Below are positions 9,728 to 23,359 of a DNA stretch of 43,216 bases, in pieces. The DNA is from a virus: IMG/VR virus record IMGVR_UViG_3300044960_000930, positions 1 through 43,216 of that record, one strand, 5' to 3'. The position numbers and the translations under genes are program-made. Numbering within the stretch: the stretch's first letter is position 1; the number at the start of each line of letters is the position of its first letter. The notes beneath the pieces were generated by a model. That model saw only the letters and a list, made by a program, of their open reading frames with translations, did not search any database and had not been told where the DNA came from.

Positions 9728-11049
9728 GCGACATCACGCCCTCCGACACGCAACATCGGGCGATCGCCGCGATCAAGCACTGGTTCGAGAACGAGACTGT
9801 CCACAAGCAGGTCTTCCGCCTCTTCGGCTATGCCGGCACTGGCAAGTCCACCGTGCTGCGCTTCGCGCTGGAGGAGCTCGACCTCGAGCACCACCGCAGC
9901 GGCGGGGACGGTGAGCCCTGCGCGCCCGGCGTCGTCACCGCCACCTTCACCGGCAAGGCCGCGCTGGTACTGCGCCGCAAGGGCACGCCCGCGCGCACCA
10001 TCCACAGCCTCATCTACTCCGTCATCGAGGCGACGGAGGAGGAGGTCGAGGCTGCCGAGAAGAAAGTCGACGAGGCGGTGGCGCGGGCGCGGGGCCTGAC
10101 CGGCTTCGAGCGCACCACGGCCGAGGCGACGATCGAGGTGATGCGTCAGGGTGTCGCCGACATGAAGCGCCCTCGCTTCGCGCTGAACCCCAAGAGCGAC
10201 GCCGCGAACGCGAAGCTGATCGTGCTCGACGAGGTCTCCATGGTCGGCGAGGAGATGGCGCGCGATCTCCTGAGCTTCGGCAAGCCGATCCTGGTGCTCG
10301 GCGATCCCGGCCAGCTGCCGCCGATCCAGGGCGAAGGCGCGTTCACCAAGGACACGCCCGACATCATGCTGACGGAGATCCACCGCCAGGCGGCGGAGAG
10401 CGCCATCATCCGCCTCGCCACCAAGGCCCGGCAGGGCGAGCCGATCGGCTTCGGGCGCTACGACGATCACGTCTGGAAGATGCGGAAGCTCGACGTCACG
10501 CCGGAGCAGGCGCTGCGCGGCGGCCAGGTGATCTGTGGCATGAACGCGACCCGGCTGCAGCTGAACAACGCGATGCGGCGCGCCGCGGGCTTCGGTGCCG
10601 GCGGTTGGCTGCCCACCGGCCCAGGCGAGAAGATCATCTGCCTCAAGAACCAGAACGATCTTGGCCTCATCAACGGCATGTTCCTCACCCTCTCCGACAT
10701 CGTCGACGAGGGCAGCCACTACCTCTCGGCGGTGGTGACGGACGAGGACGGCAACCGCATCGGCGTTCCGCAGGCGGACGGCAGCCGCGGGCGGCTCCGC
10801 ATCTACAAGGGCCACTTCGAGGACCACGTTGCCTTCGACAAGCAGCGCCACGACCGTGACTGGAAGCTCAAGAAGGGGCTGACCGAGGCGACCTTCGGCT
10901 GGGCCATCACCGGGCACAAATCGCAGGGCTCGCAATGGGAGAACGTGGTCGTCTGGGATGACGGGCTCGGGCGGACCGAGCTCGACCGGCGCCGCTGGCT
11001 CTACACCGTGATCACGCGGGCCGAGCAGGGGCTGGTGATCCTGGGATGA
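9724..11049 (+). CDS. SF1B DNA helicase (Dda/RecD2-like)
   Basis: A 441-residue helicase; the ATG at 9724 overlaps the upstream stop by 4 bp. Motif I is FGYAGTGKST (residues about 34-43), motif Ia is TFTGKAA, motif II is LDEVSMVGEE, motif III is LGDPGQLPPI, and the C-terminal motifs include GWAITGHKSQGSQW and VITRAEQGLVI, all typical of Dda/RecD2-like superfamily 1B helicases of 5'-3' polarity. The insertion between motifs Ia and II (EEEVEAAEKKVDEAVARA) is a predicted coiled coil. It probably unwinds DNA during phage replication or recombination with the primase-helicase encoded next. Confidence 0.93.
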   Translation: MSDITPSDTQHRAIAAIKHWFENETVHKQVFRLFGYAGTGKSTVLRFALEELDLEHHRSGGDGEPCAPGVVTATFTGKAALVLRRKGTPARTIHSLIYSVIEATEEEVEAAEKKVDEAVARARGLTGFERTTAEATIEVMRQGVADMKRPRFALNPKSDAANAKLIVLDEVSMVGEEMARDLLSFGKPILVLGDPGQLPPIQGEGAFTKDTPDIMLTEIHRQAAESAIIRLATKARQGEPIGFGRYDDHVWKMRKLDVTPEQALRGGQVICGMNATRLQLNNAMRRAAGFGAGGWLPTGPGEKIICLKNQNDLGLINGMFLTLSDIVDEGSHYLSAVVTDEDGNRIGVPQADGSRGRLRIYKGHFEDHVAFDKQRHDRDWKLKKGLTEATFGWAITGHKSQGSQWENVVVWDDGLGRTELDRRRWLYTVITRAEQGLVILG

Positions 11050-13601
11050 CCGCGGCCCCGATCGACCTGAACGATGCCGGCCTGGCGCCGGTCCGGCACG
11101 ATCTGGCGGAGGTGCGGCGGCGGCTCGCGGACACCGCGAAGGAGTGGCTGCCGCCGCTGTTCCCGCAGGCGCGGCGCGCTGCTGACGGCCGGACGCTGCG
11201 CTGCGCGGATCTCTCGGGCCGCGCGCCCCGCGGCGAGGGCTCCTGCGTGATCCACCTGGAGGGGCGCTTCGCGGGGTGGGGATTCGACCATGCCACCGGC
11301 GAGAGCGCGGGACCGATCGATATGGTCTACCACGCGACCGGTGCGCCGGAGCCGCGGCTGTTCGACGAGGCGGCGAGGCTGGCGCGCATGGACAGCCCGG
11401 CGCCGCCCGCACGCGCTGCGGAGCCGCGGCCGGACCACAGCCACGAGGTCGCGCGCATCCTGGCCGGCTGCGTCCCGCTCGCGGGCTCGCCCGCCGAGGC
11501 CTACCTCCGCGGCCGCTGCCTCACGCCACCCGACAGCCCCGACCTCCTCTTCCACCCCGACCTCGCCAACTTCGAGAGCCGGCGCGGCTGGCCCGGGATG
11601 GTCGCCATCGTCCGCGACGGCTCGGGCGAGCCCACGGGCGGCATCCACCGGACTTATCTGCTGGATGACGGCTCGGGAAAGGCGCCGCCCGGGAAGAAGA
11701 TGCTCGGGCCTGTCGCCGGCGGCGCGGTGCGGCTAGCGCCCGCACGCGAGGACGGGCGGATCGGCGTGGCGGAGGGGATCGAGACCGCGCTCGCCGCCAT
11801 GGCCCTGTTCGACGTCCCCGCTATGGCGGCGCTCTCGGCCGACGGGCTGCGGCGCTGGCAGTGGCCGGATGGCACCACCCACGTCACCATTTTCGCCGAT
11901 GCCGGACACGCCGGCATGCAGGCCGCGGCGACGCTGGCGGACCGGCTGAACGTCGCGGACATCCCCTCGCGCATCGTCGCTCCGCTGCATGGCGACGACT
12001 TCAACGACGACCTGCGGCGCGGGGTAGCTGCCGCCGACTACGAGCAGGCGGCTGGCGCGGAGCCGAAAGCGCACGCCACCGCGGCAGCGCCCGCGACGGC
12101 GGAAGAGCTGCTCACCGCCGCCTCCGGTCTGACCCGGCCGCCTGACTCCGAGCCGCTCGCCGACCTGCTAGGCCGGCTGGCCCTGGCGCGGCTTGACCCG
12201 CTCCCGGAGCGGCAGGTCCTCGCCGCGGTGAAGACCGCCAGCGGCATCGCCGTCTCGATCCTGGAGAAGCAGCTGGTCGAGCTGCGCAGGCGGGTGAACG
12301 CCACCGGCGATGTCCGCCGCGCGCCTGCCCGGCCGCCCTGGGCCTCGCTGCTGCGGATCGACGCCGGCGGTGCGCCGGAGCGGAACGAGGCCAACGTCAT
12401 CACGGCGCTGTCGCTCGACGCCGCATTCACGGGCGCGCTCATGTTCGACGAATTCAGCCAGGAGATCATCGTCGCCCGGGCGCTGCCCTGGGATCCGGCA
12501 GGCACGGTGCACCCCCGGCCCTGGGGTGAGGCCGACGATGTGCGCTGCGCCGAGTGGCTGCAGCGGCACGAGATCAACATCCCGCCCGTGGTGGTCGGCC
12601 GCAGTGTCGTCGCCGTATCGCGCAACATCCGCGTTCACCCGGTGCGCGACTACCTAGAGGCGCTGGCCTGGGACGGCACGGCGCGCCTCGACACCTGGGC
12701 CGTCGCCTATCTCGGTGCCGAGGACACGCCGCTCCACCGGAGCATAGCCGCACTCTGGATGGTCTCCGCTGTCGCGCGGATCATGCAGCCCGGCTGCAAG
12801 GCCGACCACATGCTGATCCTGGAAGGGCCGCAGGGCATCCGGAAGTCGACCGCCCTGAAGGTACTGGCCTCCGAGCCCTGGTTCACCGACGAGCTCGCCG
12901 AGCTCGGCTCGAAGGACGCGGCGCAGCAGATGCGCGGCATCTGGATCATCGAGATGGCCGAGCTCGACGCCATCGGCCACGCTGACGTCTCGCGCATCAA
13001 GGCCTTCCTGAGCCGCACCACGGACCGCTACCGGCCGCCCTACGAGCGTTACGTCGTCACCGTCCCGCGGCAATGCGTCTTCGCCGGCACGGTAAACCCG
13101 GACACCTACCTGCGCGACGAGACCGGCAACCGGCGCTTCTGGCCGCTGCGCTGCGGCGACATCGACCTGGACGGGCTGCGGCGCGATCGTGACCAGCTCT
13201 GGGCCGAGGCCGTCACGCGCTATCGCGCCGGGGCGCCCTGGTGGATCGAGGACCGGGCGCTGGTGGCCGAGGCCAGCGCGGCGCAGGAGGCGCGCTACCA
13301 GGGCGATGCCTGGGACGCGCGGATCGAGCGCTGGCTCGTCTCCGAGCGCAGGCCGGTGAATGTCGGCGTCGGGCACTTCGAGGACTGGCAGGAGCGCTTT
13401 GTGCCACGGCCGAAGCCGCTGACCGACGTCTCCATCGGCGAGGTGCTGGAGCAGGCGCTCGGTATCGAGGCCGCGAAGTGGACGCGCGCCGACCAGATGC
13501 GCGTCGGCGCGTTCTTCCGCGCCAGGAAATGGGTGAAATACCGCGCGAAGAACCCGCCGCGGGAGTGGCGCCACGTCGCGCCGGGAACGCCGGTGCCATG
13601 A
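11046..13601 (+). CDS. Toprim/VirE-type primase-helicase
   Basis: An 851-residue replication protein. Residues 1-130 form a primase-like N-terminal region without an obvious Cys zinc site. A Toprim-like domain follows (VAEGIETALAAM near residue 240, then FADAGHAG near 283). From about residue 480 it is a virulence-associated E (VirE) P-loop domain: LEGPQGIRKST near 592 (Walker A), IWIIEMAELDAI (Walker B-like), FAGTVNPDTYLRDETGNRRFW (arginine-finger region). The usual Toprim DxD appears as D-A-G, so one acidic residue is missing. It overlaps the helicase stop by 4 bp and is followed directly by the iteron-like repeats, supporting a role as replication initiator/primase. Confidence 0.9.
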   Translation: MTAAPIDLNDAGLAPVRHDLAEVRRRLADTAKEWLPPLFPQARRAADGRTLRCADLSGRAPRGEGSCVIHLEGRFAGWGFDHATGESAGPIDMVYHATGAPEPRLFDEAARLARMDSPAPPARAAEPRPDHSHEVARILAGCVPLAGSPAEAYLRGRCLTPPDSPDLLFHPDLANFESRRGWPGMVAIVRDGSGEPTGGIHRTYLLDDGSGKAPPGKKMLGPVAGGAVRLAPAREDGRIGVAEGIETALAAMALFDVPAMAALSADGLRRWQWPDGTTHVTIFADAGHAGMQAAATLADRLNVADIPSRIVAPLHGDDFNDDLRRGVAAADYEQAAGAEPKAHATAAAPATAEELLTAASGLTRPPDSEPLADLLGRLALARLDPLPERQVLAAVKTASGIAVSILEKQLVELRRRVNATGDVRRAPARPPWASLLRIDAGGAPERNEANVITALSLDAAFTGALMFDEFSQEIIVARALPWDPAGTVHPRPWGEADDVRCAEWLQRHEINIPPVVVGRSVVAVSRNIRVHPVRDYLEALAWDGTARLDTWAVAYLGAEDTPLHRSIAALWMVSAVARIMQPGCKADHMLILEGPQGIRKSTALKVLASEPWFTDELAELGSKDAAQQMRGIWIIEMAELDAIGHADVSRIKAFLSRTTDRYRPPYERYVVTVPRQCVFAGTVNPDTYLRDETGNRRFWPLRCGDIDLDGLRRDRDQLWAEAVTRYRAGAPWWIEDRALVAEASAAQEARYQGDAWDARIERWLVSERRPVNVGVGHFEDWQERFVPRPKPLTDVSIGEVLEQALGIEAAKWTRADQMRVGAFFRARKWVKYRAKNPPREWRHVAPGTPVP

Positions 13602-13616
13602 TGCGGCGGCGCTCTT

Positions 13617-13902
13617 GTCCTACCTCGTCCTACCTTGTCCTACCTCGGCCATCGAGGTTGGACAGCCGGAGATCCAGCTTTTCCGCGGCTTTCCGCTCGA
13701 TCGTCCAGCCTTGTCCTACCTGTCCTACCTTTTCCCTTAGAGCCATACGCGAAGCATGTAGGTCGGTCAGACATACATTTTCCTATACGGGTTTAGGGAC
13801 GAGGTCGGCAGGTAGGACAGGTAGGACAGATCGGGACAAACTACTGATTCTGCTGCAAAATTCCTGTCCTACCTCTCCGCGCAAGGTCGGACGAGGTAGG
13901 AC
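13617..13902. repeat. GTCCTACCT iteron array, candidate replication origin
   Basis: Nine perfect copies of the 9-mer GTCCTACCT in a 448-bp gene-free stretch (13602-14049). Forward copies start at 13617, 13627, 13637, 13713, 13722 and 13866; reverse copies (AGGTAGGAC) at 13810, 13819 and 13894. The first three have an exact 10-bp period and the two close pairs a 9-bp period. Degenerate copies are at 13655 (AGGTTGGAC), 13703 (GTCCAGCCT), 13802 (AGGTCGGCA) and 13884 (AGGTCGGAC). Two AT-richer stretches (about 13730-13800 and 13830-13865) lie between the clusters. Iterons around an AT-rich unwinding region beside the primase-helicase gene suggest an origin. The rest of the gap, to 14049, shows only the RBS of the next gene. 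Confidence 0.8.
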
Positions 13903-14049
13903 CGCGCATCGTCCCGAGCACCGCAGCCCGATCGCCCGCGGGCCGCCCAGAGCGTCGATCAGCCCCTCGAAGCCGGGCAGCGACGGCGAGCTCCGCCAAG
14001 AACCGCGCCGTCGCCGCCCTCACCACAGCCATCCCCTGTCGGAGATCCC

Positions 14050-14598
14050 ATGGCTCCCGTGACTCTCCCCATGCCTGCCGCCGGCGCAAGCGGCCCGCCC
14101 ATCGCGGCTCCGCTGCCCGTGGCCCTCGGCCGCCCCGCCGTCCTCGCCCTCGACCTCGGCACCACGACTGGATGGGCGCTCCGCAGCCAAGACGGTGGCA
14201 TCACCTCCGGCACCGTCACCTTCCGCCCGAGCCGCTTCGAGGGTGGCGGCATGCGCTACCTGCGCTTCCGCAGCTGGCTCGGCGAGCTGGCAGCGCTTGC
14301 CGGCGGCCTCACGCGCATCGCCTTCGAGGAGGTGCGCTCCCACGCCGGCACCGATGCCGCGCATCTCTACGGCGGCTTCCTCGCCCACCTGTCCGCCTGG
14401 TGCGAGGAGCGGGGCATTGCCTACGAGGGCGCTCCGGTCGGCACCATCAAGCGCTTCGCAACCGGCCGCGGGAATGCCGACAAGGCGGCGATGATCGCGG
14501 CAGTGCGCGCCCGCGGCTTCGCGCCGGCGGACGACAACGAGGCGGACGCCATCGCCCTCCTCCTGTGGGCGACCGACCCGCACGGTGGTCGGGCATGA
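14050..14598 (+). CDS. RuvC-like Holliday junction resolvase
   Basis: A 182-residue protein with an RNase H-fold resolvase layout: VLALDLGTTTGWAL (first catalytic Asp, near residue 34), IAFEEVRSHAG (Glu near 92) and a C-terminal acidic motif, ADDNEADAIALLLWA (Asp pair near 161-167). The spacing matches phage RuvC-type nucleases. It is preceded by GGAG 6 nt before the ATG. The first 25 residues are Ala/Pro-rich. The likely job is to resolve branched replication and recombination intermediates before packaging. The C-terminus overlaps the next small gene by 4 bp. Confidence 0.88.
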   Translation: MAPVTLPMPAAGASGPPIAAPLPVALGRPAVLALDLGTTTGWALRSQDGGITSGTVTFRPSRFEGGGMRYLRFRSWLGELAALAGGLTRIAFEEVRSHAGTDAAHLYGGFLAHLSAWCEERGIAYEGAPVGTIKRFATGRGNADKAAMIAAVRARGFAPADDNEADAIALLLWATDPHGGRA

Positions 14599-14822
14599 GT
14601 CTGCCCGGTGCGCCGCAGCCGCCCCGGTCGTGTCTGGACCTGGCACGCAGCCCGTCAACCGCGATGGACCTCGACGCCATGCGCGCCGCTGCCTGGCACC
14701 GGCACGGCGTCGCCGCCCTGGCTGTGGAGGACATCGCCGATCCCTGGCTCCGCCAGGCCGTCATCAACGAAGCCAGCCGGCGCTGGGGGCGCCGTCATGG
14801 AGGGGACAAGCATGGCCGGTAA
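14595..14822 (+). CDS. Small hypothetical protein
   Basis: A 75-residue ORF starting at the ATG at 14595, overlapping the resolvase stop by 4 bp and the next start by 11 bp. The C-terminal two thirds (MDLDAMRAAAWHRHGVAALAVEDI, DPWLRQAVINEASRRWG) are helical and read as a small phage protein found near resolvases. No domain known. Coupling on both sides is the main support. Confidence 0.6.
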   Translation: MSLPGAPQPPRSCLDLARSPSTAMDLDAMRAAAWHRHGVAALAVEDIADPWLRQAVINEASRRWGRRHGGDKHGR

Positions 14823-15366
14823 GCGGAAGCAGAGGCGGAGCGCAACGGGGGCCGAGGATCTGTCGAAGCCCTCGAAATGGCGGCTGCAGCACGGCGCATT
14901 CTCCGAGCCGATCCGCGACACCGATCCGGAGACCGGCAGCCCAGTGCAGCACCGGCGGGCGGTTGACACGGTTGGCCTGATGCTGATCAACGGCACGATC
15001 ACAGCCGAGATGCATGACGCGGCCGTTGTGTTCCGGACGAAGTTCCGGGCCGCCGCCTTGGACGATCTGCAGGCCATGGCGTGGGACCGCTTGCCCGGCG
15101 GGGCGGGCGACAGCATGACGGAGCGGCAGGCCGCGGCACGCCGCCATGTCGCCGAGGCGATGGAGGCGCTTGGCGGCTTCGACAGCGCGGCTGGCTCGGC
15201 AGTGTGGCATGTAGTGGGCCTCGAATGCTCCGTCCGGGAATGGGCTCAGCGCCAAGGGTGGGGCGGCCGACGGGTCGGGGCTCCCCAGGCGCAGGGCATG
15301 CTGGTCGCGGCGCTGGGCGTACTCGCTGCTCACTATGGCCTGACGCCAGGCCGACGAGCGGCATGA
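14812..15366 (+). CDS. DUF6456-like protein
   Basis: A 184-residue protein with GGAGGGG upstream of the ATG at 14812. The N-terminus is basic (KRKQRRSATG). The central part (GLMLINGTITAEMHDAAVVF) and especially the C-terminus (VVGLECSVREWAQ, then MLVAALGVLAAHYGL) match the pattern of the DUF6456 domain, a helical domain shared with some alphaproteobacterial regulators. It is the last gene of the early operon, at the place where lambda-type phages carry late regulators (antiterminator Q), so a late-gene control role is possible but unproven. Confidence 0.65.
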   Translation: MAGKRKQRRSATGAEDLSKPSKWRLQHGAFSEPIRDTDPETGSPVQHRRAVDTVGLMLINGTITAEMHDAAVVFRTKFRAAALDDLQAMAWDRLPGGAGDSMTERQAAARRHVAEAMEALGGFDSAAGSAVWHVVGLECSVREWAQRQGWGGRRVGAPQAQGMLVAALGVLAAHYGLTPGRRAA

Positions 15367-15454
15367 ACGAGTTCAGGCGAAATCAGACCCCTCATGCAAT
15401 GAATACAGGCAGGGGTTGAATGCTGTAGAATTGCGATTAGCGAATCGGGCAGCC

Positions 15455-15490
15455 CGCCTCGCTCCGGAGGCGCTGCGAGAGCAGCGCCTC
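15455..15490 (+). promoter_or_regulatory. Two mutually exclusive hairpins before the BstA-like gene
   Basis: GAGGCGCTGC (15467-15476) and GCAGCGCCTC (15481-15490) form a perfect 10-bp inverted repeat with a GAGA loop. The left arm can also pair with CGCCTC at 15455-15460 through a 6-nt loop (GAGGCG at 15467-15472), so two structures compete. They lie 33 bp before the ATG at 15524. An upstream inverted repeat ACCCCT/AGGGGT (15387-15392, 15411-15416) and a possible -10 box TAGAAT (15426-15431) are also present. They may act as attenuator, operator or a BstA-type immunity element; none is shown. Confidence 0.5.
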
Positions 15491-15523
15491 AAGTGCTTGT
15501 CTGAAATGGGAAAGCTGACTGAC

Positions 15524-16441
15524 ATGGCCCTTCCGAGCAGCACCCCTCAGCAGCTGAGCCTCGGCGTTCTGAAGGAGATCGAGGTCGACGGGGTCGCCAT
15601 GGGCGTCTTGACCGACGGCACTCCCTATCTGACGGGGCGCGGGTTGGCTCGGATGTGCGGCATCGACAACTCGGCCATCACCCGGATCCAGTCGGGCTGG
15701 AACCTGCCCGAACTCCGACCGCGCGAGGCGAAGATCAAGGAAAATCTGCGACAGCAGGGCATCGTTCTCGACCAACCCTACATAAAGATCGAAATTGGCG
15801 GAACAACTACCTACGCCTATCCAGATACGGTGTGCATGGCGGTTCTTGAATATTATGCGTTTGAAGGTGCCGCGCCGGAAGCGCGCGATCATGCGCTCAA
15901 GAACTACCGCCTTCTTGCCCGAAGGAGCTTTAGGGATTTTATCTACACCCAAGTTGGGTATAGTCCCACAGTCGAGATTCCCGCCGTCTGGCAGCAATTC
16001 CACGACCGCGTTTCACTCATGTTCGACAGCGTCCCGGCTGGATACTTCAGCGTGTTCAAGGAGATTGCCGACATCATCGTGACTCTCATTCGAAGCGGGG
16101 CGCGCATTGGTAAGGAGTTCATTCCGGATATCAGTGTTGGACAGCATTGGGGAACGTACTGGAGAGATAACGGCTGTGAGGAGCGGCTGGGGGCGCGGCG
16201 ACGGTATAACCACAACTACCCCGATTATTTCCCACAATCGGCTTCGAATCCTCAGCCTGCCTACTGCTACCCCGACGCAGCGCTAGGCGAGTTCCGAAAG
16301 TGGGTGCGCGAAGTCTACTTGCCCGAGAAGCTTCCGGCTTACCTCGGCTCGAAGACCAAGCAGGGCGCTCTGCCGCCGTCAGTTGCTGAGATGGCGCAGC
16401 GTGCTGTCGCTGACCGGGGAAAGGGCGGTGCGCTTAGTTAA
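15524..16441 (+). CDS. bstA-like: BstA-like prophage abortive-infection protein
   Basis: A 305-residue protein from the ATG at 15524 (GGGAAAG 9 nt upstream); a TTG at 15416 or the ATG at 15506 would extend it through the hairpins. The N-terminal half (LKEIEVDGVAMGVLTDGTPY, LTGRGLARMCGIDNSAITRI) resembles a KilA-N/Ant-type DNA-binding domain. The C-terminal half carries PDISVGQHWGTYW (about residue 200), HNYPDYFPQS (about 229) and YPDAALGEFRKWVREVYLPEKLPAYL, a pattern I associate with BstA of Salmonella phage BTP1. BstA aborts infection by other phages, and its own phage is protected by the aba DNA element. The gene is AT-richer than its neighbours and stands alone between operons, as expected for a moron. 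A phage antirepressor is the alternative. Confidence 0.68.
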   Translation: MALPSSTPQQLSLGVLKEIEVDGVAMGVLTDGTPYLTGRGLARMCGIDNSAITRIQSGWNLPELRPREAKIKENLRQQGIVLDQPYIKIEIGGTTTYAYPDTVCMAVLEYYAFEGAAPEARDHALKNYRLLARRSFRDFIYTQVGYSPTVEIPAVWQQFHDRVSLMFDSVPAGYFSVFKEIADIIVTLIRSGARIGKEFIPDISVGQHWGTYWRDNGCEERLGARRRYNHNYPDYFPQSASNPQPAYCYPDAALGEFRKWVREVYLPEKLPAYLGSKTKQGALPPSVAEMAQRAVADRGKGGALS

Positions 16442-16775
16442 AGGCGCCGGTGGCTGTGCTCAGTAAGGGCGAGCTGTAGCCTGGCATCCACAACGGAAGT
16501 GCGACTCCGCTGTTACAATTCACCCCATAGCGTCGCGGAATCTGCATCCGGTAAGGTCTCGATAGTCGCTGAAGGCGCGACCGGGCCGCGGCTCACCAGT
16601 CACAGCGTCGCTCGATCGAGACAGTGGCTCGCGAGCCGCAGGGTCCTTCCTGCGCCTGCTGTATGCGGGGGGCGGAAGCGCGCAAGGTTCCTAGCGTCAG
16701 CCCCGTTTTCCAGGTTGCCAGCGTCGCCAGGTTGCCAGCCGCGGCGCCCTCCGTTCCACCATCACGCAGGTCCCG
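16442..16775. other. Intergenic stretch with AGGTTGCCAGC repeats
   Basis: A 334-bp gap between the BstA-like gene and the methyltransferase pair. Its right end holds two tandem copies of CCAGGTTGCCAGC (16710-16722 and 16727-16739, period 17 bp) and a degenerate copy, AAGGTTCCTAGCG, near 16684-16696. The same core recurs inside the first methyltransferase gene, inverted at 17211-17221 and direct at 17234-17243. An operator for the ParB-methyltransferase genes is one reading. No convincing ORF, tRNA or intrinsic terminator is visible in the rest. Confidence 0.5.
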
Positions 16776-18254
16776 ATGCCCCAGGCCCCATGGTCTGCGA
16801 GCGCCGTCGAGGCGCGCGCGGTCGCCGCGCTGCTGCCCTATGCTGGCAACGCGCGCACGCATTCGCCCGAGCAGGTGGCGCAGATCGCGGCCAGCATCCT
16901 GGAGTTCGGCTTCGTCGCGCCGGTGCTGGTCGACGAGCGCGGCGAGATCATCGCCGGCCATGGTCGGCTGCTGGCCGCGAAGTCCCTCGGCCTCGACACT
17001 GTGCCGACGATCGTCCGCGGCGGCCTGACCGAGGCCCAGAAGGCAGCGTATCGCCTCGCCGACAATCGCATCGCGCTGAACGCCGGCTGGGACGAAGCGC
17101 TGCTCGCGGCCGAGGTCACGAAGCTGCAGGAGATGGGCGGCGTCGACCTGGCGCTGACCGGCTTCGACGGCGCCGAGATCGAGCGGCTCCTGGCCGGACT
17201 GGAAACCGAGGCTGGCAACCTCCCAGCGCCGGCGGTTGCCAGCGTTGCCGAGCCGGCCCCTGGCAATCAGCCGGACGCGGATGGCGCCGAGCCGGTTGCG
17301 GATCCCGCGGATGCCGAACCGGAGCCGCCACGCCAGGCCGTCGCGCGGGTCGGCGACATCTGGCTGCTGGGCGAGCATCGCCTGGCCTGCGGCGACAGCA
17401 CGAACCGCAGCACCGTCGCGCGCGTGATGGCCACCGATCGCGCGTCGTTGCTCTTCACCAGCCCGCCCTACGGGAACCAGCGGGACTACACCACCGGCGG
17501 CGTCTCGGATTGGGACGCGCTGATGCAGGGCGTGTTCCAGCATCTCGACGGCGCGCTGCGCCGCGACGCGCAGGTGCTGGTGAATCTCGGGCTGATCCAC
17601 CGCGAGGGCGAGTGGCAGCCCTACTGGCAGGGCTGGCTCGACTGGATGCGCGCGCAGGGCTGGCGTCGCTTCGGGCTCTACGCCTGGGACCAGGGCCCCG
17701 GCCTGCCTGGGGACTGGAACGGCCGCCTCGCACCGGCCTTCGAGTTGGTGTTCCACTTCAATCGCGAGGCGCGGCCCCCCAACAAGATCGTGCCCTGCAA
17801 ATGGGCCGGCACGCCGAACAAGGGCAGCGGCTTGCGCGCCGCCGACGGGGAGGTGAAGGCCTACACCCACATCGGCCTGCCGGTGCAGGAGATGCGCATC
17901 CCCGACAGCGTGCTGCGCATCACGCGGCATAAGGGGCGGGGGATCGAGACCGAGCACCCGGCGGTGTTCCCCGTCGCGCTGCCAGAGTTCCTGATGCGCA
18001 CCTACACGGACGAGGGCGACGTCGTGTTCGAGCCGTTCGGCGGCTCCGGCACGACGATCCTGGCGGGCCAGCGGACGGGCCGGCGCGTCCGCGCCATCGA
18101 GCTTGCTCCTGCCTATGTCGACCTGGCGATCGCGCGCTGGCGCATGCTGCATCCCGACGTGCCGGTGATCCTGGACGATGGCGGGCACGGCATCGGCCCA
18201 GATTACGACGCCGTGGCCGCGACCCGCGGGGAGGCGACAGCCGATGCTGCCTGA
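16776..18254 (+). CDS. ParB-like/DNA methyltransferase fusion, SPPY type
   Basis: A 492-residue protein. Residues about 10-100 form a ParB/sulfiredoxin-fold domain (LLPYAGNARTHSPEQVAQIAASI, then IIAGHGRLLAAKSLG and YRLADNRIAL). After an acidic/Pro linker comes a beta-class methyltransferase: motif IV TSPPYGNQ (near residue 228) before motif I FEPFGGSGTTILAGQ (near 418). The SPPY form is usual for N4-cytosine enzymes, so an m4C product is suggested but not certain. No restriction endonuclease gene is adjacent. It overlaps the second fusion by 11 bp, so the two are co-expressed, probably to mark or protect phage DNA. Confidence 0.92.
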   Translation: MPQAPWSASAVEARAVAALLPYAGNARTHSPEQVAQIAASILEFGFVAPVLVDERGEIIAGHGRLLAAKSLGLDTVPTIVRGGLTEAQKAAYRLADNRIALNAGWDEALLAAEVTKLQEMGGVDLALTGFDGAEIERLLAGLETEAGNLPAPAVASVAEPAPGNQPDADGAEPVADPADAEPEPPRQAVARVGDIWLLGEHRLACGDSTNRSTVARVMATDRASLLFTSPPYGNQRDYTTGGVSDWDALMQGVFQHLDGALRRDAQVLVNLGLIHREGEWQPYWQGWLDWMRAQGWRRFGLYAWDQGPGLPGDWNGRLAPAFELVFHFNREARPPNKIVPCKWAGTPNKGSGLRAADGEVKAYTHIGLPVQEMRIPDSVLRITRHKGRGIETEHPAVFPVALPEFLMRTYTDEGDVVFEPFGGSGTTILAGQRTGRRVRAIELAPAYVDLAIARWRMLHPDVPVILDDGGHGIGPDYDAVAATRGEATADAA

Positions 18255-19509
18255 CCTCCGCGTGGAGATGATGCCGGTGGCCTCGCTGGCGCCCTATGCC
18301 GCCAACGCCCGCCTGCACCCCACCGAGCAGGTGGCGCAGCTCGCCGCCTCGATCGGGGAGTTCGGCTTCAACGTGCCGGTGCTGGTGGATGACGCCGGCG
18401 TGCTCATCGCGGGCCATGGCCGCGTGCTGGCGGCGAAGGCGCTCGGCCTCGAGGAAGTCCCCGCCATCCGGCTCGGCCATCTGACGGAGGCGCAGGCGCG
18501 GGCGTTCCGGCTGGCGGACAACCAGCTGGCGCTGAACTCCACCTGGGACGAGGGACTGCTCGCTGCCGAGCTGCGCGCCCTGCGCACCGACGAGTTCGAC
18601 CTCGGGCTGATCGGCTTCGACGGTGCGACGCTGGATCGGCTGCTGGGTGATGCCACGCAGGACGCACCCGCGCCGGGCGGGGCTCCTGACGCGCCGGCGC
18701 CGGAGCCGCCGGAGGCGCCCGTCACCCGGCCCGGAGATCTCTGGCTGCTCGGGCCGCATCGCCTGCTATGCGGCGACGCCACCAGCGCCAGCGATGTGGC
18801 CCGGCTGCTCGACGGCGCGAAGCCGCACCTGATGATCACGGACCCGCCTTACGGGGTGAACTACGATCCGGAGTGGCGGAACGAGGCTGGTGTCTCGGCC
18901 ACGATGCGCACCGGCAAGGTGACGAATGACGACCGCGCCGACTGGCGCGAGGCCTGGGCGCTGTTCCCCGGCGACGTCGCCTATGTCTGGCACGCGGGCG
19001 TGCACGCGCGCACCGTGATCGAGAGCCTCGAGGCGGCCGGCTTCGTGGTGCGCAGCCAGATCGTCTGGGCGAAGTCGCGCTTCGTGCTGGGGCGCGGCGA
19101 CTACCATTGGCAGCACGAGCCCTGCCTCTATGCGGTGCGCAAGGGCGCGACCGGCCACTGGCAGGGCGCGCGCGACCAGGCGACGCTCTGGCCGATCAGC
19201 ACGGGCGGCGACGAGGACGCGGCGACCGTGCACGGCACCCAGAAGCCGGTCGAGTGCATGCGCCGGCCGATCGTCAACAACAGCGCGCCCGGGGACGGGG
19301 TCTACGAGCCATTCTCTGGCAGCGGCAGCACCATCATCGCGGCGGAGACCACCGGACGCGTCTGCTTCGCGATGGAGATCGACCCGCGCTATGTCGATGT
19401 GGCGGTGCGCCGCTGGCAGGCCTTCACGGGCCGTGCCGCCGTGCTGGCGGGGGAGGAGCGGGTCTTCGACGACATCGCCGCCGCCCGCAGCACGCAGGCG
19501 GCGGCGTGA
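18244..19509 (+). CDS. ParB-like/DNA methyltransferase fusion, DPPY type
   Basis: A 421-residue paralogue of the preceding gene, starting at the ATG at 18244 inside its end. The ParB-like domain (SLAPYAANARLHPTEQVAQLAASI, then LIAGHGRVLAAKALG and FRLADNQLAL) is followed by a short Ala/Pro linker and a beta-class methyltransferase with motif IV TDPPYGVNY and motif I YEPFSGSGSTIIAAE. DPPY points to an N6-adenine target. The ParB domains are close to each other, but the catalytic halves differ more, consistent with two different base specificities. It ends 14 bp before a convergent gene. Confidence 0.92.
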   Translation: MLPDLRVEMMPVASLAPYAANARLHPTEQVAQLAASIGEFGFNVPVLVDDAGVLIAGHGRVLAAKALGLEEVPAIRLGHLTEAQARAFRLADNQLALNSTWDEGLLAAELRALRTDEFDLGLIGFDGATLDRLLGDATQDAPAPGGAPDAPAPEPPEAPVTRPGDLWLLGPHRLLCGDATSASDVARLLDGAKPHLMITDPPYGVNYDPEWRNEAGVSATMRTGKVTNDDRADWREAWALFPGDVAYVWHAGVHARTVIESLEAAGFVVRSQIVWAKSRFVLGRGDYHWQHEPCLYAVRKGATGHWQGARDQATLWPISTGGDEDAATVHGTQKPVECMRRPIVNNSAPGDGVYEPFSGSGSTIIAAETTGRVCFAMEIDPRYVDVAVRRWQAFTGRAAVLAGEERVFDDIAAARSTQAAA

Positions 19510-19523
19510 TTCCTTCGGCGCGA

Positions 19524-20378
19524 TCAGGCCGGCAGGTGGTAGATCGTGAAGGAGCCCTTCGCGCCTTCCTTGTTCGGGCCGACCTGGCGCACCCGCTCCA
19601 GCACCTGCACCTCGATCCCCTGGCGCTTCTTCAGGCCCGCGAAGAACCCGCGGACCGTGTGCTGCTGCCAGCCGGTCGCCTCGCAGATCTGCGCGATGGT
19701 CGCGCCCTCCTCGCGGCGGAGCATCGCCAGGACCGTCTCCTGCTTCGTCCCCTCGCGCGGCTTGCGCGGCGCGCCGGCCTCGCGGTTGGCACGGGGCGGC
19801 TTGCCGGCGAGCGCGGCACGGAGGGCCGCCATCGGGCTGTCGAGGGCGGTGATGATGTCCGTCTCACGGTTCGCCTCGTCGTCCCAGGCGGCCAACACCG
19901 CCGCGGCGGCGTCGCGCAGGTTGGCCCGCGGGGCGGGCGTGGGCGCGGCCTGGGTCGCCTCGGGTTCCTCTGCGGGGGAATCCCCCTCCGCGGCGTCCTC
20001 CCCGCCCGTGGGCGCCGTGTCGGCCACCGGCGCGGCAGCCTCCGCGGCAGCGCGGCGCTCGGCGTTGCGGCGGGCGATGGCCTCGGGGCTCTGCTCGTCC
20101 TCCTCGCGCGCGTCGCCCGCGTTCGGGTCGATGCCGATGGCGCGCAGCCCCGCGTCGGTGATGCGCGCCACGATCCAGGTCCCGTCCTCATCCTGTCGCC
20201 AGCCGAGCCCGACATGCTCCCGCGGGGCGTTGATCTCGGTGAGCAGGTTGTTCTTGATCAGGCTGCGGAACACCGCGTTGCGGGCGGCGGCCGGCAGGGT
20301 CTTCGGCGCGCGGGCGAGGCCCATCTCGTGCTGCGCCGCGGCGCTCAGGATCACGCGCTGGGTATCGGAAAGCGTCAT
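19524..20378 (-). CDS. DUF3489 domain protein
   Basis: A 284-residue protein in the opposite orientation to the operons around it. The N-terminal 70 residues (LSDTQRVILSAAAQHEMGLA, ARNAVFRSLIKNNLLTEI, ITDAGLRAIGI) resemble a winged-helix domain; a long Ala/Glu/Pro linker follows (about 80-170). The C-terminus (GTKQETVLAMLRREEGATIAQ, ICEATGWQQHTVRGFFAGLKK) is a clear DUF3489 helix-turn-helix. The family is frequent in alphaproteobacterial phages, beside methyltransferase and terminase genes. Its DNA target is unknown; a regulator of late genes is a reasonable guess. Confidence 0.88.
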   Translation of the reverse strand: MTLSDTQRVILSAAAQHEMGLARAPKTLPAAARNAVFRSLIKNNLLTEINAPREHVGLGWRQDEDGTWIVARITDAGLRAIGIDPNAGDAREEDEQSPEAIARRNAERRAAAEAAAPVADTAPTGGEDAAEGDSPAEEPEATQAAPTPAPRANLRDAAAAVLAAWDDEANRETDIITALDSPMAALRAALAGKPPRANREAGAPRKPREGTKQETVLAMLRREEGATIAQICEATGWQQHTVRGFFAGLKKRQGIEVQVLERVRQVGPNKEGAKGSFTIYHLPA

Positions 20379-20429
20379 CGTCGTGGTCTCCGGTTCCGGG
20401 AGCCGACCCTCGGCCCCCTACTGCCGGGA

Positions 20430-20457
20430 GCCCCGCCGGGCGGAACCCGGTCGGGGC
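20430..20457 (-). terminator. GC-rich hairpin between two minus-strand genes
   Basis: GCCCCG (20430-20435) plus CCGGG (20436-20440) pair with CCCGG (20446-20450) and CGGGGC (20452-20457), an 11-bp stem with a single bulged T and a 5-nt loop. It lies after the stop of the 20477-20701 gene on the minus strand and before the DUF3489 gene. There is no U-tract, so it may be a weak terminator or a transcript-stability element. Confidence 0.4.
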
Positions 20458-20476
20458 GGTGCGGGAGCGCGGCGCG

Positions 20477-20701
20477 TCAGGCGCGGTATTCGCCGCGCCG
20501 GAAATGTTGGTCGGCGACCTCCTTCAGCTTCGCGGTGGCGTCGGTGAGCCAGGCGGTCTCGCACCAGAGCACCGCCTCGGGATCCGCGCCGAAGTGGTCA
20601 TCGCTGGCCTGCTGCAGTTCGGCGAGCAGGGCGTCGAACTCCGCCTTCTTCGCGAGGAAGGCCTCGAGGCTCCGCTGCTGGTTGGCTTCGCGCTTGGTCA
20701 T
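20477..20701 (-). CDS. Small hypothetical phage protein
   Basis: A 74-residue acidic protein. The ATG at 20701 is chosen because GGAG lies 6 nt upstream; a longer form from 20737 is possible. It is helical (TKREANQQRSLEAFLAKKAEFDALLAELQQ) with conserved-looking Cys and Trp residues (VLWCETAWL). Similar small ORFs occur next to DUF3489 genes in alphaproteobacterial prophages. It diverges from the terminase small subunit gene across a 112-bp gap in which no clear promoter is visible. Function unknown. Confidence 0.65.
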   Translation of the reverse strand: MTKREANQQRSLEAFLAKKAEFDALLAELQQASDDHFGADPEAVLWCETAWLTDATAKLKEVADQHFRRGEYRA

Positions 20702-20813
20702 GGTCGGCTCCGTCATCTGCATCGCGTGACGGACCATTCGCGCTGTGCCGCGCGCGAGCCAAGCGCCGTCGCCGCGATGGCGATTGCTATCTTCGAGGGA
20801 TCTCGATCACATC

Positions 20814-21392
20814 ATGATCGCCGCTGCGCAGCCGGGCCGCGTGGCCTCGCAGCGCGAGGTGGCGCGCCGCCTCGGCATTTCCCACACGGCGCTGCAGAAG
20901 GCGCAGCGCGCCGGCCGCATCGCGCCCGAGGCCGATGGCGCTTGGGATGTCGAGAAGGTTCGGGCACGGCTCGCTGACAGCAGCGACCCCGTCCGCAAGA
21001 CGGCGACGCTGGCGCCAACCGCACCGGCAGCATCGCGGCTAGCGACGCCACCGCCTGTCGCCGCGATGGCGCCGGCGGCCGATCCGCTGCCGCGCGCCGC
21101 CCAGAATACCTTCCACGATGCGCGCACGGCGAACGAGGTGCTCAAGGCGCAGGAGCGCCGGCTGCGGCTCGACGAGCGCAAGGGCAAGCTGGTGGACAAG
21201 GCGCGTGCCCTACTGCTGGTGCACCGCCTCGCCAAGGAGGAGCGGGACGCCATCCTCGCCTGGCCGGCCCGCGTCGCCGCAGAGATGGCAGCCGAGCTCG
21301 GGGTCGATGCGCACCGGCTGCAGACGATGATGGACGCGCGGCTGCGCCAGCACCTCGCTGAGCGGCACGACGTCCGCGTGAGCGTCGGCTGA
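20814..21392 (+). CDS. Terminase small subunit-like protein (Nu1-type)
   Basis: A 192-residue protein from the ATG at 20814; a GTG at 20745 would extend it. The N-terminal HTH reads GRVASQREVARRLGISHTALQKAQRAGRI, as in Nu1-type DNA-recognition subunits. An Ala/Pro linker follows, then a helical C-terminus (RLRLDERKGKLVDKARALLL, AAELGVDAHRLQTMMDARLRQ) like that of Nu1-related proteins, used for assembly with the large subunit. It overlaps the large terminase gene by 1 bp (TGATG). It should recognise the packaging site (cos or pac), which I cannot locate. Confidence 0.8.
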   Translation: MIAAAQPGRVASQREVARRLGISHTALQKAQRAGRIAPEADGAWDVEKVRARLADSSDPVRKTATLAPTAPAASRLATPPPVAAMAPAADPLPRAAQNTFHDARTANEVLKAQERRLRLDERKGKLVDKARALLLVHRLAKEERDAILAWPARVAAEMAAELGVDAHRLQTMMDARLRQHLAERHDVRVSVG

Positions 21393-23359
21393 TGGTCGGG
21401 GAGCATCTGCTGGACGAACTCGGCCGCTTCGAGGGCGACGCCGAAATACTGCAGGCCTGGCGCGACGGCATGGCGCCGGAGCCGGCGCTGCTCGTGTCGG
21501 AATGGGCCGACCGGCATCGCCTGCTCGGCAGCCGCGGCTCTGCCGAACCGGGGCCGTGGCGCACCGCGCGCACGCCCTACCTGCGCGAGATCATGGACGC
21601 GCTGTCGCCGGCGCATCCCGCTCGGCGTGTCGTGTTCATGAAGGGCGCGCAGGTCGGCGGCACCGAGTGCGGCAACAACTGGATCGGCTACGTGATCCAC
21701 CACGCACCGGGGCCGATGCTCGCGGTGCAGCCGACCACCGAACTGGCCAAGCGCTTCTCCGACCAGCGCATCGACCCGCTGGTGGAGGAAACGCCGGCGA
21801 TCCGGGAACGGGTCGCGCCGGCCCGCTCCCGCGACAGCGGCAATCGCCAGCTCAGCAAGGAGTTCCCGGGCGGCCAGCTGGTGATGACCGGCGCGAACAG
21901 TGCCGTGGGCCTGCGCTCGATGTCGGCGCGGTTCCTGTTCCTCGACGAGATTGACGCCTACCCCGGCGACGTCGAGGGCGAGGGCGACCCGATCGCGCTG
22001 GCCGAGGCGCGGGCGCGGACCTTCGGCTGGCGGCGCAAGATGCTGCTGGTCAGCACGCCGACCATCGCCGGCTTGTCGCGGATCGAGCGCGAATACCTGG
22101 CGACCGACCAGCGGCGCTACTTCGTGCCATGTCCGCATTGCGGCCACCGCCAGCACCTGCGCTTCGAGCGGCTGGTCTGGGACGAGGGCGCGCCGGAGAC
22201 GGCACGCTATCTCTGCGAGGACTGCGACGGGGCGATCGGGGAGCAGCACAAGGCGGCGATGCTGGCCGCGGGCGAGTGGCGGGCCACGGCTACACCGACG
22301 GACCCGCACGCGGTCGGCTTCCACATCTCGGCTCTCTACTCGCCGCCGGGCTGGATGCCCTGGTCGGAAATCGCCCGTCTCTGGCTCGCCGCCCAGGGCG
22401 ACGACCGGGCAATCAAGACCTTTCGGAACACCGTGCTGGGCGAGACCTGGCAGGAGGCGGGCGAGGCGCCGGACTGGCAGCGGCTCTATGACCGCCGCGA
22501 GCACTGGCCGGCGGGCACCGTGCCCATGGGCGGGCTGCTGCTGACGGCCGGCGTGGACGTGCAGCGCGACCGCCTCGAGGCGAGCCTCTGGGCCTGGGGG
22601 CAGGACCGCCAGTCCTGGCTGGTCGAGCACCGCGTGCTGGCGGGGAACCCGTTCGAGGCGGCGGTGTGGGAGGAGTTGCGGCGGCTGCTCGGCGAGACCT
22701 GGCGGCACGCCAGCGGGCACCGTCTGCCGATCGCCATGGCGGCCATCGACAGTGGCGACGGCATGACCACGGCGGAGGTCTACGCCTTCGTGCGGCGCGC
22801 CGGAGCCGGCCGCGCCATCGCCGTGAAGGGCCAGGACGGGCTCCGGGCAGCAGTCGGCCAGCCGGCAGCGACGGAGGTGCGGCGCAATGGCCGGAAGCTA
22901 GGCGGGCTTAAGGTCTGGCCGGTAGGCTCGTCCTTCCTGAAGGCCGAGACCTACGGCTGGCTGAAGCTCGACCGGCCGACGGAGGAGAGCGGCGATCCCT
23001 TCCCGCCGGGCTACGTGCACCTGCCGGTGCATGCGGCGGGCGAGGAATTCTGCCGGCAGCTGACCGCGGAGCAGCTCGTGGCCCGCGCCGGCCGCAACGG
23101 CTTCCGGCGGCTGGAGTGGGTCAAGACCCGCGAGAGGAACGAGGCGCTCGACTGCCGGGTCTATGCCCGTGCAGCCGCGGCGGCGCTCGGCATGGATGGC
23201 TGGGGCGACGGACGCTGGGCCCGGATGGTCGATGCGCTGTCGCTGCCGGCGGCCGAACTTCCCTCCGGCGGGAATGTCGCTCCGGCGTCGCCACCGGCAG
23301 CGCCCGACACCCATCGCCCGCGCGGATGGCTTGCGCCGCGCAGCGGCTGGTTGCGCTGA
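21392..23359 (+). CDS. terL: Terminase large subunit (GpA family)
   Basis: A 655-residue DNA-packaging ATPase/nuclease of the lambda gpA type. The ATPase domain has the Walker A-like VVFMKGAQVGGTE near residue 85, and Walker B FLFLDEIDAYPGDVEGEGDP near 182. A zinc-finger-like pair, CPHCGHRQH and CEDCDG, lies between domains (about 248-280). The nuclease domain begins with LTAGVDVQRDRLEASLWAWG near 388. The length is normal for gpA. It moves DNA into the prohead and makes the end cut; gpA members usually use cos or headful-like sites with a Nu1-type partner, as found upstream. Confidence 0.96.
   Translation: MVGEHLLDELGRFEGDAEILQAWRDGMAPEPALLVSEWADRHRLLGSRGSAEPGPWRTARTPYLREIMDALSPAHPARRVVFMKGAQVGGTECGNNWIGYVIHHAPGPMLAVQPTTELAKRFSDQRIDPLVEETPAIRERVAPARSRDSGNRQLSKEFPGGQLVMTGANSAVGLRSMSARFLFLDEIDAYPGDVEGEGDPIALAEARARTFGWRRKMLLVSTPTIAGLSRIEREYLATDQRRYFVPCPHCGHRQHLRFERLVWDEGAPETARYLCEDCDGAIGEQHKAAMLAAGEWRATATPTDPHAVGFHISALYSPPGWMPWSEIARLWLAAQGDDRAIKTFRNTVLGETWQEAGEAPDWQRLYDRREHWPAGTVPMGGLLLTAGVDVQRDRLEASLWAWGQDRQSWLVEHRVLAGNPFEAAVWEELRRLLGETWRHASGHRLPIAMAAIDSGDGMTTAEVYAFVRRAGAGRAIAVKGQDGLRAAVGQPAATEVRRNGRKLGGLKVWPVGSSFLKAETYGWLKLDRPTEESGDPFPPGYVHLPVHAAGEEFCRQLTAEQLVARAGRNGFRRLEWVKTRERNEALDCRVYARAAAAALGMDGWGDGRWARMVDALSLPAAELPSGGNVAPASPPAAPDTHRPRGWLAPRSGWLR

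Follow-up and report, generated by a model that had tools for sequence, protein, structure and literature searches.

The window, as the whole stretch of DNA analysed is called here, comprises 43,216 nucleotides (positions 1 to 43,216 of IMG/VR virus record IMGVR_UViG_3300044960_000930). It contains a gene of the BstA abortive-infection family, bstA, newly found in a known family, and a short direct repeat placed across the bstA start codon. The repeat pair is predicted to be the cognate aba, the DNA element by which a resident phage is spared its own BstA. The gene and the repeat pair were annotated as follows:

15524..16441, + strand: bstA coding sequence, 305 amino acids, with the stop codon ending at 16441 (profile matches and AlphaFold2 model)
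Residues ~15-150 of BstA: N-terminal domain, KilA-N-like (model)
Residues ~151-300 of BstA: C-terminal domain
15650..15700, + strand: codons of residues 43-59, including the predicted helix-turn-helix (HTH) recognition helix at residues 49-58 (model and covariation)
15478..15488, + strand: first copy (copy 1) of the predicted aba repeat, A-GAGCAGCGCC, 5' of the bstA start codon
15534..15544, + strand: second copy (copy 2) of the predicted aba repeat, C-GAGCAGCACC, within bstA codons 4-7
15478..15544, + strand: minimal predicted aba element, 67 bp, with BTP1-like geometry and a putative function in self-immunity

The BstA protein gave a full-length match to PADLOC profile PDLC02356 (E=1.1e-120; positions 5-287 of 292) and matched phrog_6287, annotated 'BstA abortive infection system', at E=3.3e-97 (positions 6-280 of 304). 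No Pfam or NCBIfam profile matched it at E<=1. The original prediction for this DNA had proposed a BstA-like gene with a KilA-N-like N-terminus, the motifs PDISVGQHWG and HNYPDYFPQS, and a preferred start at ATG 15524. The profile matches bear out the family assignment, both motifs were present in the translation, and the start at 15524 was consistent with the starts of aligned relatives; an alternative in-frame start, ATG 15506, is possible too. From its profile matches the gene is a BstA family member, and by analogy with other BstA proteins its product would act as an abortive-infection protein that halts foreign phages.

An AlphaFold2 model of the full protein (mean predicted local distance difference test, pLDDT, 92.3; predicted template modelling score, pTM, 0.66) contained a winged-HTH domain at the N-terminus, with HTH helices at residues 38-45 and 49-58, in agreement with the KilA-N-like domain that had been proposed. 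The nearest folds to residues 15-150 were BRO/KilA-N/APSES-type neighbours with Z values of 4.3-6.5, including the BRO-type 4ye7 (Z 6.5, 91 aligned, 3.0 Å) and Mbp1, 1bm8 (Z 4.5, 88 aligned, 3.8 Å); these Z values are middling and speak for the fold only. The proteins 4ye7, DdrC and Mbp1, which we take to form one KilA-N/BRO/APSES group, resemble the window BstA in the fold of residues 15-150 but are without its C-terminal domain. Across 96 aligned sequences six residues of the C-terminal domain were invariant: D202, S204, W209, W213, P233 and Q238. Modelled separately (pLDDT 89.9), this domain had no useful structural neighbour (Foldseek best E 2.0; VIA best Z 5.1, to 8af9_C). The full model matched nothing in the PDB at E<=0.001 and five viral models at E<=0.001 with low template modelling scores, and the structure searches found no solved BstA structure for comparison.

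The two copies, GAGCAGCGCC at 15479-15488 and GAGCAGCACC at 15535-15544, formed a direct repeat 56 bp apart with the ATG between them, which was absent from the observations behind the original prediction. The word GAGCAGCRCC occurred twice on the + strand of the window, as this pair, and three times on the - strand. It is the family data, described below, that make the repeat credible.

Genomes of bacteria and archaea, together with IMG/VR, supplied the related loci (the best 80 of 165 and the best 80 of 265 relatives), and eight of the phage and plasmid matches were added. A conserved MG codon pair anchored 173 of the 174 sources with a BstA match (all except L049), and 171 of these had full upstream sequence. 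Leaders were collapsed at 75% identity over 100 nt to 103 loci; L001 was dropped as a copy of the window. The spacing of 56-57 bp was first spotted in the leaders of the first 20 related loci, where the repeated words differed between loci. A locus passed when a 9-mer repeat had at least eight matches at 55-57 bp, the first copy lying before the midpoint and the second after it. The thresholds of 8/9 and 55-57 bp were chosen once the leaders of the first set had been anchored and collapsed, at which time a second set of 39 loci was unseen; this second set came from two further viral scans, in which 150 sources had the region and 39 were kept (L277, L331 and L238 lacked the anchor).

In the first set 59 of 103 non-redundant loci passed, 28 of them with perfect repeats. 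Seven other spacing triplets, from 46-48 to 67-69, gave 0-3 of 103 each, and pairing upstream halves with the downstream halves of other loci gave a mean of 4.1 and a maximum of 11 in 1000 permutations. The unseen set behaved alike: 21 of 39 loci passed, against 0-1 for six other triplets. Taking all 142 loci together, 80 reached at least 8/9 and 114 at least 7/9, whereas permuted halves reached a mean of 5.7 (maximum 17 in 1000 permutations) and 22.3 (maximum 34), respectively. Permuted halves thus rarely matched, so that the agreement between copies does not stem from one motif common to all loci; the copies of a pair vary in concert. Background rates were 154 of 7274 for shifted windows of the same loci and 19 of 607 for other open reading frame (ORF) starts. 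Among loci in which copy 1 could not be BstA coding sequence, 13 of 37 passed (permuted mean 0.94, maximum 4; control triplets 0-2). The count at 8/9 is conservative, because the BTP1-type locus L020 itself scored 7/9.

Several further observations were made on the distribution of repeats and of bstA. A clade with the helix NAHIGT (L082, L085, L073, L078, L093, L094 and relatives) carried the word AGGAAATCA at 57 bp, or 19 codons; both copies often lay in open frame, and the DNA element may there be translated into a repeated K-E-I peptide. Within 5 kb, the 59 passing loci had 27 near-matches to the repeat outside the pair, and these were scattered. The window pattern matched seven viral stretches, one with bstA (L339, on the same contig as L002, below) and six without; the BTP1-type pattern matched 36 stretches, 24 with bstA, one (L367) in which, by eye, the bstA start was cut by the locus edge, and 11 with none. 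Pairs resembling aba away from bstA were considered as decoys carried by other phages, and this idea was rejected; such cases look like chance. In two viral contigs, L334 and L336, with no bstA within the available stretch, GAGCAGCACC occurred twice at 56 bp round a palindrome-like core; this may be accidental or mark a different binding site. Homologs of bstA also lay on contigs labelled Verrucomicrobium and relatives, Planctomycetota and Leptolyngbya (L031, L032, L053-L055, L058, L086 and L088), beyond the proteobacteria named in the accessible text of PMC8585504; several of these are metagenome-assembled genomes, for which binning errors are possible. One bstA match (L329, G003:C1:1906104-1906967), in the genome behind L037, labelled Endozoicomonas elysicola, contained one in-frame TAG and is possibly decaying.

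The repeat sequence tracked the predicted HTH recognition helix of BstA (residues 46-56) better than it tracked the rest of the protein. When the repeats of the 59 passing loci were aligned, they gave a word in which G was strong at column 1 and C at column 7, and columns 2-6 varied. At the variable columns the two copies agreed within a locus in 83-97% of cases and far less across loci (column 3: 90% versus 26%); as the motif and covariation tables were limited to loci passing 8/9, within-locus agreement is inflated, a bias of which the permutation tests are free. Summed mutual information with the variable bases was highest at T53, R54 and A51 and was also high at D48, N49, S50 and Q56, all of which belong to the predicted recognition helix and its start. 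In partial Mantel tests of 9-residue windows, with the rest of the protein controlled for, residues 46-54 ranked top (r 0.46; mean of all windows 0.03, standard deviation 0.11), and the r of 0.38 for residues 48-56 was reached in 0 of 2000 permutations. The helix window was still top with 79 loci (0.514) and after thinning to less than 60% identity (37 loci; 0.319, with the next elsewhere at 0.207). The upstream-flank control had no peak at the helix. In the family table H49 occurred with C at column 6 in 20 of 21 loci, and N49 mostly with T or G. The covariation left out L247, which has an odd frame at the helix, and L332. Locus L007, which shares the GIDNS helix start of the window, had GAGCAGCACC as copy 2 and its best pair at 57 bp.

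The closest relative among the matches listed was 71% identical to the window BstA over the C-terminal part. It came from the genome behind L049, labelled Siccirubricoccus phaeus, where bstA was split over two contigs (L331 and L332). The leader in L332 contained GGGCGCCGCC/GGGCGCCACC at 56 bp, compared with GAGCAGCGCC/GAGCAGCACC in the window: three positions were changed, each in both copies, and at the eighth base the copies still differed by G/A. The helix was VHHSAIQRIQ in L332 and IDNSAITRIQ in the window. With the change of N49 to H, column 6 of the motif went from G to C, which matches the association in the family table, from which this locus had been excluded.

These dependencies bear on the idea that the repeats are sites of another regulator, such as a phage repressor, linked to BstA by shared descent alone. 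Many bstA genes sit behind a repressor (PMC8585504), and phylogeny alone yields some correlation (motif versus rest of protein, r 0.33). The helix correlation persisted once the rest of the protein was controlled for, L332 altered both copies and the helix, and the window bstA has no recognised repressor alongside, so that another regulator is quite improbable.

The one aba mapped in the accessible text of PMC8585504 is that of phage BTP1. It comprises 63 bp, of which 29 lie upstream of bstA and 34 within its coding sequence, and a CCCGCC direct repeat stands at each end; a single base change in either repeat destroys aba immunity, which needs both repeats, also when aba is supplied in trans from a plasmid (PMC8585504). 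In the sequence printed there, the start-to-start spacing of the repeats is 56. The BTP1 system thus consists, like the window, of a full-length BstA and direct repeats 56 bp apart across the start codon, one upstream and the other inside the bstA coding sequence, and the predicted 67-bp element compares with the 63 bp of BTP1, with repeats at its ends. The two BstA proteins were 44.9% identical. The systems differ in the repeat word (GAGCAGCRCC in the window, CCCGCC in BTP1) and in position: bstA of BTP1 lies behind the CI repressor and that of the window between replication and packaging genes. Unlike BTP1, the window phage is high-GC, and its putative aba is predicted from sequence. An aba-like sequence unrelated to that of BTP1 had been proposed; the sequence does differ, but the architecture is the same. 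Nor would the window extend BstA to alphaproteobacteria, as had been suggested, since homologs in alpha-, beta- and gammaproteobacteria were already stated by Owen et al. (2021, PMC8585504).

Two further BstA proteins, BstA-Ec and BstA-Kp, have demonstrated phage defence and a cognate aba in the locus, with the aba of each unmapped in the accessible text (PMC8585504). Judged by identity, the BstA-Ec type is probably L021 (41.8% identical to BTP1 BstA; 41.7% in the paper) and the BstA-Kp type L016/L170 (47.3/47.6%; 48.4% in the paper). Both L021 and L170 had repeats at 57 bp, with words unlike that of the window. In E. coli, 996 of 5426 complete genomes matched at least part of the CL707-type cI-bstA region (query L021:1300-2413), and only 33 of those covered at least 80% of it, which fits a mosaic site.

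Taken together, these results make it likely that BstA of this temperate siphophage reads its own repeat pair as a cognate aba and so spares the resident phage. The predicted KilA-N winged-HTH domain would bind the DNA word of about 10 bp that is repeated 56 bp apart across the bstA start codon. BstA would stop DNA replication of foreign phages, as shown for other BstA proteins. On induction, the repeat pair on the replicating DNA of the resident phage would capture or inactivate BstA, perhaps by two-site looping or by titration, and the resident phage would be spared. Because recognition helix and repeats would evolve together, each BstA would have its own repeat word. A wider proposal is held with somewhat less assurance, as more likely than not: that every BstA has a repeat pair of about 10 bp, at 55-57 bp over the start codon, which is read by the KilA-N helix and is aba; that a helix-base code gives specificity (His49 with C, Asn49 mostly with T or G, at column 6); and that swapping one helix could reprogram cognate immunity.

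The same repeats could instead be an autoregulatory operator, across which BstA loops at the start of its gene and limits its own expression, with self-immunity separate or secondary. The repeats flank the start codon, a place suited to repressor action, the predicted domain has a KilA-N/BRO-type DNA-binding fold, and the spacing, permutation and helix-covariation results would fit any BstA-binding site. On the other side stand the need for both BTP1 repeats in aba immunity, including in trans, and the lack of any report of autoregulation in the accessible text of PMC8585504. As the sole role of the repeats autoregulation is therefore doubtful; it is compatible with the immunity reading and may coexist with it.

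A number of observations weigh against a repeat pair read by BstA as aba. Alone, the window repeat was only nominally unusual: of dinucleotide-shuffled leaders, 1.2% had a repeat of at least 8/9 with a spacing of exactly 56 bp, and 4.4% had one at 55-57 bp. Across the family, 62 of 142 loci fell under 8/9, although the BTP1-type L020 scored 7/9. With the NAHIGT clade, the largest, removed (60 loci) the helix was top by a small margin (0.238 versus 0.185 for residues 171-179); in a 12-locus subset of new loci the helix window was not top. A weak peak at 48-56 (0.196) likewise appeared in the control on the downstream flank. Residues outside the helix (L125, Q158 and D22) ranked high too, so shared descent was not fully removed. 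A protein-level repeat could contribute in the NAHIGT clade, where 57 bp is 19 codons in open frame. The window bstA is not downstream of a recognised repressor, a position reported for many bstA homologs that is common, not universal, and not defining (PMC8585504). A promoter and terminator scan of 15000-16800 found neither, and no sigma-70-like promoter. The single-locus probability of about 1-4% also leaves a small chance that bstA is decayed or silent and its repeat accidental. The ORF, though, is intact and covers nearly the whole profile, an identical copy lies on a second viral contig (L002, probably the same phage), and L332 has both copies altered in step.

The leader also contained features of secondary structure, all upstream of the start codon:

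15467..15490, + strand: 10-bp-stem hairpin GAGGCGCTGC-GAGA-GCAGCGCCTC, with arms GAGGCGCTGC at 15467-15476 and GCAGCGCCTC at 15481-15490; overlaps repeat copy 1; not family-wide
15455..15472, + strand: competing 6-bp hairpin, CGCCTC at 15455-15460 and GAGGCG at 15467-15472
15387..15416, + strand: inverted repeat, ACCCCT at 15387-15392 and AGGGGT at 15411-15416; not significant

The original prediction had suggested a possible self-immunity element in the leader of bstA and had pointed to the hairpins and the inverted repeat. The location is supported, through the direct repeat and not through the hairpins. The two competing hairpins with a common arm (15467-15472) lie exactly where they had been placed, at 15455-15490, and the 3' arm of the 10-bp stem shares bases with repeat copy 1. 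RNA folding of 15440-15500 gave -33.9 kcal/mol (z -3.04), with 0 of 200 shuffles equally stable. The inverted repeat claimed at 15387-15416 is present but unremarkable: folding of 15380-15424 gave z -1.04, and 27 of 200 shuffles were as good. The hairpins might act as an RNA or DNA switch that confers immunity, given that the window hairpin is real and stable and that z was below -2 around copy 1 in 8 of 59 loci (2 of 59 controls). The family mean of z was only -0.40, and the BTP1 aba works as DNA with transcription unneeded (PMC8585504), which together render such a switch very improbable; hairpins were rejected as a general immunity element with just those eight loci below -2. Rfam gave no match over 14500-17000 at E up to 1.

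The genes of the virus record included serine integrase, DUF2924, Sak4, Cas4-like exonuclease, helicase, primase, RuvC-like resolvase, bstA, two ParB-methyltransferase fusions, and terminase, portal, head and tail genes. The surrounding integrase, Sak4, primase, terminase, portal, head and tail genes associate bstA with a prophage. It lies between the replication and packaging genes; its 5' neighbours are a DUF6456 ORF and the RuvC-like resolvase, two ParB-methyltransferase genes lie 3' of it, and no recognised repressor adjoins it. Upstream neighbours in 10 of 13 chosen loci included a regulator-like match in two (L103 and L104) and none in eight, a hint only given the crude choice of ORFs. 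A second contig, L002 (IMG/VR 3300045136_000895), was identical to window 10524-21438 over 10,915 bp; L002 and the window are probably one phage sampled twice, and L002 is not independent evidence.

The base composition of bstA had been described as unlike that of flanking genes, and this was confirmed: its GC content was 58.6% and its GC at third codon positions (GC3) 69%, against 72-74% and 87-91% in five other window genes measured and 71.5% GC for the window. Because both values lie far under those of the five genes, bstA looks like a recent acquisition.

Three other parts of the window were recorded. Tandem ParB-like/DNA-methyltransferase fusions (16776-18254 and 18178-19509) directly follow bstA and could shield phage DNA from restriction. 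A serine recombinase with Resolvase and Recombinase domains (390-2257, - strand) adjoins the DUF2924 gene and is likely an integration module. A gene for a DUF3489 protein (19524-20378, - strand) lies between the methyltransferase genes and the terminase gene and runs opposite to the genes around it.

As far as the searches of open-access PMC text show, no family-wide aba architecture, repeat rule or link to the helix has been described. Each aba is cognate to its BstA, and the accessible text of PMC8585504 leaves open the determinant of this specificity and how aba DNA silences BstA. The sequence rule points to the likely aba of most bstA loci and to a candidate helix that would read it, making both of these questions directly testable. 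It also suggests a way in which two short repeats could let a prophage label its genome as self.
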